From contig QYQL01000037.1 in assembly GCA_007280915.1 (NCBI GenBank), forward strand, positions 1 to 64,000: a stretch of 64,000 nucleotides of DNA, written 5' to 3'. Source of the DNA: Verrucomicrobiaceae bacterium (GTDB taxonomy: Bacteria; Verrucomicrobiota; Verrucomicrobiia; Chthoniobacterales; Terrimicrobiaceae). Numbering within the stretch: the first letter of the stretch is position 1; each line of letters starts with the position of its first letter. The notes beneath the pieces are model-generated. The model did not search any database and had not been told where the DNA came from. It saw only the letters and a program-made list of their open reading frames with translations. Position numbers and translations under genes: made by a program. Shown here piece by piece: positions 35,171 to 36,926 of this stretch.

Positions 35171-35603
35171 GACGGGAGCCTACACGCTTCTCGAAGTTCT
35201 TCTCGCATTGGGCGTTGTGGCCGTGCTGCTAGGGATCTCGGTCCCCTATCTCGCGGAATCCTTCGGAAAATCCCCTGTCGAGGAAAAGGCGGACGTGATT
35301 GCGCAGGCCGTGCAGGCGGTGCGTTTGGGAGCGATCGCGCAAGGGGAATCCCGGAGGATCGCTCTCTTTGGAAATGCGCTGGTTCCGGATGCGGACTCCC
35401 CGCCGCCCGTGCGGCTCGCGAAGGGATGGCGGCTTGAGGTGCGGCGCATGACGGAATCGAAATTCCGCAAGCCGGAAAAAAATGAATCCTGGGGGTTCAA
35501 CAGCGCCGGGATTTGCGAACCGCTGACGCTGCGGATCGTCGTCGGGAAGGACTCCCTCGAAATGGCATTCGATCCGCTTACAGGGCTTGTTATCGATGAG
35601 TGA
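35151..35603 (+). CDS. gspH: Minor pseudopilin, GspH-like
   Basis: A 150-residue prepilin-like protein. The leader 'MVPRPNRTGA' is followed by 'YTLLEVLLALGVVAVLLGIS', with alanine at -1 where glycine is usual. The body contains GspH-like strands ('RRIALFGNALVP', 'LTLRIVVGKDSLEMAFDPLT'). It overlaps gspG by 20 bases and gspI by eight. Assignment to GspH is by order and size; sequence divergence is high. Confidence 0.75.
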   Translation: MVPRPNRTGAYTLLEVLLALGVVAVLLGISVPYLAESFGKSPVEEKADVIAQAVQAVRLGAIAQGESRRIALFGNALVPDADSPPPVRLAKGWRLEVRRMTESKFRKPEKNESWGFNSAGICEPLTLRIVVGKDSLEMAFDPLTGLVIDE

Positions 35604-36081
35604 AGAAATGTGGATTGCGGATTGCGGATTGCGGAAGGAATATCACCCGCACTCCGCACGGCCCTCGGACGCAAAGCGGCCCAATTCCGCATTCCGCAGT
35701 CCGCCTTCCGAATTCGCGGCCTTCACCTTGTTCGAAGTTTTGATCGCTCTCGGGGTATTTGCGATCGCGGTGACCGGACTGGCGATGGCGCTGGACAGCG
35801 CGGTGCAGGCGGCCTTCGAGGCCCGTGAGCGCGCGCTGTCGCGGATCGTGCTGGAGTCCAGACTTTCGGCGGCGATGTCAGATCCCCCTGTCAACGGGCG
35901 CAGGGTGATCGAGGCCCGCGACAACAACGGGATCCGTGTCGAGGAGACGATGGATGTCTTCGAGGCAAAGACGACCAACGGCACGCCCGTGACCGGCATC
36001 TGGAAATTGAAAATCACCGCCGATTTCGGGCGTGGGAAAAAAAGCCAGGAAAAGGCGGAGATCCTCCTCTACAAGCCATGA
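35596..36081 (+). CDS. gspI: Minor pseudopilin, GspI-like, with repeat-encoded leader
   Basis: A 161-residue prepilin-like protein whose mature part starts 'FTLFEVLIALGVFAIAVTGL'. The N-terminal leader is about 42 residues, far longer than the usual 6-25, and ends in EFAA. It is encoded by a repetitive, inverted-repeat DNA element (35608-35713) related to the one in the next gene. Shared leader residues include 'SARPSDAKRPNS'. The start at 35596 overlaps the gspH stop; the ATG at 35608 is also possible. Confidence 0.78.
   Translation: MSEEMWIADCGLRKEYHPHSARPSDAKRPNSAFRSPPSEFAAFTLFEVLIALGVFAIAVTGLAMALDSAVQAAFEARERALSRIVLESRLSAAMSDPPVNGRRVIEARDNNGIRVEETMDVFEAKTTNGTPVTGIWKLKITADFGRGKKSQEKAEILLYKP
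35608..35713. repeat. Inverted-repeat element inside the gspI leader
   Basis: Tandem GGATTGC units (35611-35635) and a core with TATCACCCGC and CGGACGCAAAGCGGCCCAAT are followed by inverted ATTCCGC/ATTCCG units. The core recurs at 36198-36243 in gspJ with few changes. The whole element is translated in frame as part of the prepilin leader. Confidence 0.7.
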
Positions 36082-36926
36082 GGGAAGAAATGCGGAATGC
36101 GGAATGCGGAACACATGCCAGCGGGAGCTGGCTGGGTAGCCTGTCGCAGACAGCCCGAAGGGCGAGACGAGCGGGAGCGAGCAAGGCAATGCGGAATGGA
36201 TATCACCCGCGCTCCGCGCGGCACTCGGACGCAAAGCGGCCCAATTCCGAATTCCGAATTCCGAATTCCGAATTCGCAGGCTTCACCCTGTTTGAGGTGA
36301 TTCTTGCTTTGATGATCCTCGGGATGCTGACCGGCGCGGTGTATTCGATCACGTCCGCGGCGACCGAGGCGAGCCGTGCGACGATGGAGGAGCAGTCCTC
36401 GGTGCGGCGGGTTGAGGCATTTTTGAAGGTCACGCGCGATGCATTTTTGAATCTGCCGCGCGAGGGGCGTGTCCAGCTGGAGTTTTCCAAGTCCGCTTCT
36501 GGGGCGCCGGTGCCGGAGGTGATCTTCGAGGAAGCGCCCGGGGTGTTCGGGGTCCCGAGCCTCGGCGGAGGGTCATTGATTCTCGCCGCGCGGCCGCGTG
36601 CGGATGGGTCCCGCACGATGTCGCTTCTCCTTGTCCCCCGCGATCCCGGTATCGGGGAACTCGACCGGCTGAAGGCCGGCAACGGATGGATCCCGCTGCT
36701 CCCCCGCGTCGAGAAGGTCAAATGGTCGTTCTTTGCCAACGGCGAGTGGAAGGACGAGTGGCCCCGCGAAAATGGACGTCCTCTCACGGTCCGACTGGAG
36801 ATGGAATACCTCGACATGGGGGGTTCTAAAATCGATGTGCAGTTCTGGATTCCGCCGCTTGCCGCCGCTCAGAAAAACCAGCCCCCCGCGCCGACTCCGG
36901 CTCCGCAGAAACCCCAGGAACCATGA
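36078..36926 (+). CDS. gspJ: Minor pseudopilin, GspJ-like, with repeat-encoded leader
   Basis: A 282-residue prepilin-like protein. A 68-residue leader precedes 'FTLFEVILALMILGMLTGAV', with glycine at -1. The leader derives from a repeat element (36090-36282), partly shared with gspI ('RSARHSDAKRPNSEFR'). The body ('ATMEEQSSVRRVEAFLKVTR' and 'LVPRDPGIGELDRL') is in line with GspJ. The C-terminus has a Pro/Gln-rich tail. It overlaps gspI and gspK by four bases each. Confidence 0.78.
   Translation: MREEMRNAECGTHASGSWLGSLSQTARRARRAGASKAMRNGYHPRSARHSDAKRPNSEFRIPNSEFAGFTLFEVILALMILGMLTGAVYSITSAATEASRATMEEQSSVRRVEAFLKVTRDAFLNLPREGRVQLEFSKSASGAPVPEVIFEEAPGVFGVPSLGGGSLILAARPRADGSRTMSLLLVPRDPGIGELDRLKAGNGWIPLLPRVEKVKWSFFANGEWKDEWPRENGRPLTVRLEMEYLDMGGSKIDVQFWIPPLAAAQKNQPPAPTPAPQKPQEP
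36090..36282. repeat. Inverted-repeat element inside the gspJ leader
   Basis: Starts with tandem GCGGAAT units (36091-36110) and ends with four or more CCGAATT units (36242-36275), which are their approximate inverse. The inner core is shared with the element in gspI. An extra segment of about 90 bp (36111-36189) is absent from the gspI copy. There is no stop codon in the gspJ frame. Confidence 0.7.

Follow-up and report, generated by a model that had tools for sequence, protein, structure and literature searches.

The window, the whole stretch of 64,000 nt analysed here, lies on contig C172 of a 3.56-Mb draft genome in 190 contigs and carries a type II secretion operon whose genes run G (34724), H, I (35596), J (36078), K (36923), L, M, D (40122). 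The GspG match scores above its NCBIfam cut-off, and the family-model matches for GspD, I, J, K and M all fall below theirs, as does a further match of the gspJ product to PF11612 (T2SSJ, E 1.9e-5). The operon context fits the assignment of gspI and gspJ (Table 1), with GspG on one side and matches to GspK, GspM and GspD on the other. The nearest named relatives of this GspG come from two metagenome-assembled Verrucomicrobia (Lake Pavin, JAPLTF010000053.1; SulCav, DYRS01000003.1), followed by many Chthoniobacterales, Spartobacteria and Terrimicrobiaceae. Both predicted products carry the class III signal features of a small residue at -1, a hydrophobic stretch and Glu at +5 (A^FTLFE and G^FTLFE), and share with standard GspI and GspJ the operon order G-H-I-J-K-L-M-D as well as the Ala/Gly and Glu positions. 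They differ from that standard in their leaders, which have 42 residues in gspI and 68 in gspJ instead of 6-26; both lengths had been given exactly in the initial annotation. Published prepilin leaders are mostly of 6-26 residues (PMC4471445), and very long ones have been reported in Streptococcus sanguinis (PMC10191384).

Table 1. Genes, predicted leaders and repeat features of the gspI/gspJ region (positions within the window).
Feature	Position	Strand	Remarks
gspI-like minor pseudopilin gene	35596..36081	+	ORF; best match TIGR01707, E 1.7e-8, below curated cut-off
gspI prepilin leader, 42 codons	35596..35721	+	...SPPSEFAA^FTLFEVLIAL; predicted cleavage after 35721
Left heptamer arm, gspI element	35612..35635	+	(GGATTGC)3.4
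Core, gspI element	35636..35683	+	G+C-rich; contains GGACGCAAAGCGGCCC
Right heptamer arm, gspI element	35684..35715	+	(ATTCCGC)4.6
gspJ-like minor pseudopilin gene	36078..36926	+	ORF; best match TIGR01711, E 1.3e-12, below curated cut-off
gspJ prepilin leader, 68 codons	36078..36281	+	...RIPNSEFAG^FTLFEVILAL; predicted cleavage after 36281
Left heptamer arm, gspJ element	36089..36111	+	(AATGCGG)3.3
Element B	about 36112..36186	+	Second dispersed repeat, nested in gspJ element; boundaries approximate
Core, gspJ element	36190..36242	+	Copy of gspI core
Right heptamer arm, gspJ element	36243..36275	+	(AATTCCG)4.7

Each of these leaders contains a repeat element with the same plan, a G+C-rich core of about 50 bp between inverted arrays of a 7-bp unit. 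The two are related through a repeat pair, D1 (35630-35738 and 36190-36298, 86% identity over 109 nt), and through a further 33-nt pair at the two gene starts (88% identity). The D1 copies stand at offsets of 34 and 112 from their respective ATG codons, both 1 mod 3, and are read in the same frame, giving the shared residues DAKRPNS and SEF that had been remarked on before; the repeat-built leader peptides include EYHPHSARPSDAK. The arms of the gspI element pair into a strong predicted RNA hairpin (-57.3 kcal/mol, z -3.9), but the gspJ core with its right arm folds no better than shuffled sequences (z -0.07); in this copy the two arms are unequal and element B separates them. A conserved mRNA hairpin as the common mechanism was accordingly rejected. 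We also rejected the idea that the element is special in being open in all six frames, since one of the six is closed and dinucleotide shuffles do equally well (P 0.10-0.22).

Such elements are dispersed in the genome. A genome-wide count of the family, suggested by the initial annotation, returned 17 places matching the gspI element (E <= 0.001) and 37 occurrences of the heptamer pair ATTCCGNATTCCG in 3.56 Mb, against none for the reversed control. In a 324-kb sample (260 kb from 20 contigs plus the window), tandem arrays with at least about three copies most often have period seven: there are eight of these, compared to one each for periods 6, 8, 9 and 10, and the window holds five of the period-7 arrays. 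More heptamer arrays of related units occur in the window at 51114-51145, 56479-56511 and 56556-56580, those near 56.5 kb no more than about 1 kb downstream of a pair of neighbouring prepilin genes with motifs at 55146 and 55652. Copies of element B, 83-93% identical, are found on contigs C166, C161, C162, C83 and C119 of the same genome and also in G004, a genome of the sister genus. There, element B runs straight into the prepilin motif of two neighbouring genes, L187 (C36:9664) and L191 (C36:11078), in different frames; the frame is open through element B and the start codons are uncertain, and both genes were left out of the counts below.

The initial annotation had placed the inserted repeat before or at the start of each gene, as an intergenic repeat that became translated. 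The insertion itself stands, as in both genes a repeat lies between start codon and cleavage site, but the intergenic placement is less accurate: as the genes overlap, there is no room between them, and insertion within the old leader codons describes the case better. The gspI ATG at 35596 overlaps the gspH stop (TGA, 35601-35603; offset -5), and the gspJ ATG at 36078 overlaps the gspI stop (ATGA; offset -1). Comparison with orthologues, likewise proposed at the outset, recovers the same arrangement around short leaders. The gspI offset of -5 recurs in the congener G001 and at the sister-genus loci L137, L139, L151 and L178 (it is -8 in L142), and the gspJ offset of -1 in the congener G002 and at all four sister-genus loci tested, with GTGA in G001. 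From this conserved start the sister-genus leaders span only 5-6 (gspI) and 10-13 (gspJ) residues. Since the stop-overlap offsets are kept with short leaders, the gspI and gspJ start codons are most likely the ancestral ones, with repeats added behind them, amounting to about 37 (gspI) and 58 (gspJ) added codons before the cleavage site. A start behind the repeat, raised earlier as an objection, finds no candidate: neither gene has an ATG, GTG or TTG between the repeat and the cleavage site. The last ATG before the gspI cleavage site is at 35608, which would leave a leader of 38 residues, and the last TTG lies within the element; the last possible ATG in gspJ, at 36189, would still give a 31-residue leader with the core translated.

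Nor are long leaders a conserved trait of relatives, the other objection raised. Of the gspI and gspJ leaders at 46 named GspG loci, most measure 5-16 residues from the nearest ATG, and leaders of at least 30 residues were found for gspI at L135, L136, L158, L162 and L180 and for gspJ at L135, L136 and L162. L135 and L136 represent both congeners that have the operon (G001 and G002), and their long leaders are repeat-built in gspI and gspJ alike; in a third congener, G003, no match to GspJ was obtained. The core in G001 and G002 is the reverse complement of that in the genome of the window and carries other arms, and all six gspI/gspJ leaders of the three species are read in phase through an open frame. 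The two matches to the gspJ leader in G001, and the two core matches in G002, occur only at gspI and gspJ. Local alignment scores of the leaders peak within a genome (69 between gspI and gspJ here and 69.5 in G001, as compared to at most 47.5 between our gspI and that of G001), while those of the mature parts peak between orthologues (319.5 for gspJ here and in G001, 198 for gspI here and in G002, and 32.5 for our gspI and gspJ). Leaders are therefore alike by genome and mature parts alike by gene. Two independent insertions are in consequence not the sole reading, as greater likeness within than between genomes is what copying between the genes would give.

In-frame copies are not confined to this operon. 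In the same genome, either the same repeat or others occur in the leaders of prepilin genes on contigs C58 (T2SSG-like), C46 (weak DUF1559 match) and C30. The one on C30 is dispersed and matches the gspJ leader of G002 at 88.6% identity over 105 nt. An element of the same family is also in frame in the editing domain of leucyl-tRNA synthetase (L007, G000:C64:16733-16812), an essential enzyme, where it accounts for about 19 residues extra relative to solved structures, with conserved stretches on both sides. A copy on C81 (L004, G000:C81:8979-9088) provides a long in-frame N-terminal extension before a likely Sec signal, FLVLLLVSASAPAASE, in a protein that no family model matched. Two related bacteria, L162 and L180, share an unrelated repeat (SVLxVLDxASTGA) in their long gspI leaders, with more copies elsewhere in both genomes. 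At L180 (3100-3872) this repeat is present in gspH as in gspI (97% over 131 nt; leaders of 52 and 75 residues, respectively), and at L162 (2400-3329) the gspI leader has 88 residues and the gspJ leader 91, of other sequence. The leader at L158 contains (AACTGCC)n. By sequence, then, repeat-built leaders recur with at least three different repeat families.

Across 109 prepilin loci of the order (327 kb), four of eight period-7 arrays fall in leader segments that account for 6.4% of the DNA (binomial P 9e-4; 3 of 7 by locus, P 0.007), the four arrays lying in three genes of three genera; these segments (150 nt before the prepilin cleavage site, runs of N excluded) were defined only once the pattern was known, the counts are small, and some start codons are uncertain, that of L282 above all. 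In the genome of the window, leaving gspI and gspJ aside, such arrays occur in 2 of 21 prepilins against 0.036 expected, where the prepilins are the 23 PF07963 matches, some without a clear cleavage motif and kept in the denominator. A scan of 388 genomes of the phylum for the heptamer of our element just before a prepilin motif matched four genomes besides our own, one of them clearly: a prepilin in G434 (L331) with an evident repeat-built leader. L332 shows a near-palindrome together with an earlier in-frame prepilin motif, and L330 and L334 yielded no prepilin frame under the motif applied. With one clear further genome among 387, phylum-wide prevalence of this heptamer before prepilin motifs is rejected; the family is rare, and the pattern, if general, is one of many families. 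The scan with the heptamer AATCCAA before a prepilin motif returned none in the phylum, perhaps through too strict a pattern, since related leaders exist at L261 and L282.

We consider it probable that dispersed, non-autonomous palindromic repeats entered the prepilin leaders, where they are translated, cut off and nearly harmless; the insertion step, as judged from the comparisons above, is well supported for gspI and gspJ. The prepilin leader lies on the cytoplasmic side and is removed by prepilin peptidase (PMC10191384). Elements would enter the short leader between the ancestral start, overlapping the upstream stop, and the prepilin-peptidase site, and a net insert length divisible by three would keep the reading frame. 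The insert would then be translated within the prepilin and, still on the cytoplasmic side, cut off along with the leader, leaving the mature pseudopilin unchanged; that a 68-residue leader is so processed is an extrapolation from the published norm. A hydrophilic in-frame insert that preserves the -1 residue does not alter the mature protein and should therefore meet little counter-selection, which would suffice for the repeated survival of repeats in leaders. A leader that tolerates almost any hydrophilic sequence would let insertions survive there more often than elsewhere, and this suggests that cleaved leaders may serve as a safe landing zone for repeats. Tolerance of the inserts and the way in which the elements move are likewise what we infer. 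Once filled, leaders would turn over, with arms changing, the core in either orientation and more repeats nesting inside, and the gspI and gspJ copies would stay alike within a genome either by copying between the genes or by repeated insertion from one pool.

For the last of these steps, there is about an even chance that a single ancestral insertion, in gspI or gspJ, passed to the other gene by conversion and was inverted in one lineage through its arms. The same two genes are filled in all three congeners, similarity is greater within a genome than between species, and inverted-repeat arms make flipping mechanically easy; repeated insertion from a common genomic pool would fit equally, however, and the pool in our own genome is large. 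It is more tentative, and in our judgement rather doubtful, to extend this to Chthoniobacterales prepilin leaders as a general hot spot for repeats, with continuing gene conversion via the repeats keeping adjacent pseudopilin leaders similar, so that these evolve in concert, independently of the mature proteins. The scans do not bear out a general hot spot for any single repeat family (1 of 387 further genomes; none for the second heptamer).

The same concerted likeness of gspI and gspJ leaders within genomes could instead reflect function, if matched, hairpin-forming leaders tuned translation or co-assembly of the minor pseudopilin complex. This would explain similar leaders in both genes in each of three species, would sit well with the finding that element matches (G001) and core matches (G002) are confined to these two genes, and has the gspI mRNA hairpin (z -3.9) in its favour. 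We regard it as unlikely, given that gspJ core and right arm do not outdo shuffles (z -0.07), that sister-genus species manage without such leaders, that orientation and arms differ between species so that neither sequence nor structure is kept, and that unrelated repeats do likewise in other lineages. As arms, orientation and folding are not conserved, function is not required; the word "exapted" in the initial annotation would mean that a function had been gained, which nothing here supports, and we drop it. That translation starts after the repeat, leaving the element as an untranslated spacer between genes, would agree with the seemingly intergenic position of most elements of this family in the genome. 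It is very improbable in view of the missing downstream start codons, the retained old start with the same stop overlap, and the uninterrupted, in-phase frame of six leaders from three species, and the leucyl-tRNA synthetase copy cannot be untranslated in that way. Repeats also provoke misassembly, and in an assembly of 190 contigs one might have been misplaced into the operon. We give this next to no weight, as two congener assemblies have long repeat-built leaders in the same two places, of different sequence and in frame, and misplacement would not preserve frame and start overlap.

Insertion into a leader that is later discarded, which we prefer, has its closest likeness in the palindromic elements of Rickettsia and Wolbachia (RPE/WPE; Ogata et al. 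2000, 2002, 2005), described in later reviews as dispersed repeats of about 100 bp, intergenic as well as in frame in genes, that the host protein tolerates (PMC2229807, PMC6649704). Dispersal and in-frame presence in protein genes are shared, as is a palindromic stem-loop in the gspI copy, and we liken the two by manner of working; here, in contrast, the phylum is another, the arms consist of tandem 7-bp units, and a striking share of the translated copies sits in cleavable prepilin leaders. Small repeats fused in frame to genes are also known as the enterobacterial RU-1/2/3 and the Neisseria Correia repeats with ORFs (PMC2229807, PMC2759123), and the predicted signal peptide of YPO1552 in Yersinia is partly encoded by an RU copy (PMC2229807). 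These resemble our case as in-frame small repeats, but here the host is a class III leader, found in two neighbouring genes for a single machine and recurring in several species. Heptanucleotide repeats have been described in Beggiatoaceae (TAACTGA; PMC4679880) and in Xanthomonas (GGGAATC), with related units in Nostoc (PMC4692102). They, too, have a 7-base unit and numerous sites, frequently close to start codons. Most of them are direct repeats between genes, whereas here the units form the inverted arms of a palindromic element in frame in genes. Inverted arms are also the point of comparison with MITEs. A literature search, which took in few subscription papers, found no report of repeat-built prepilin leaders.

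In-frame protein repeats have so far been known mainly from Rickettsia and Wolbachia. With a discarded peptide as target, the idea that such elements survive where they are harmless becomes directly testable, and leader length and composition could be compared with insertion rate across hundreds of genomes. Genes with repeat-built leaders may defeat automatic start calling and signal prediction. Natural leaders of 42 to 88 residues would also provide test material for the length tolerance of prepilin peptidase. The only prepilin peptidase gene (PF01478) detected in this genome is at C161:7593-8231, and a copy of element B lies just downstream of it (G000:C161:7327-7422).
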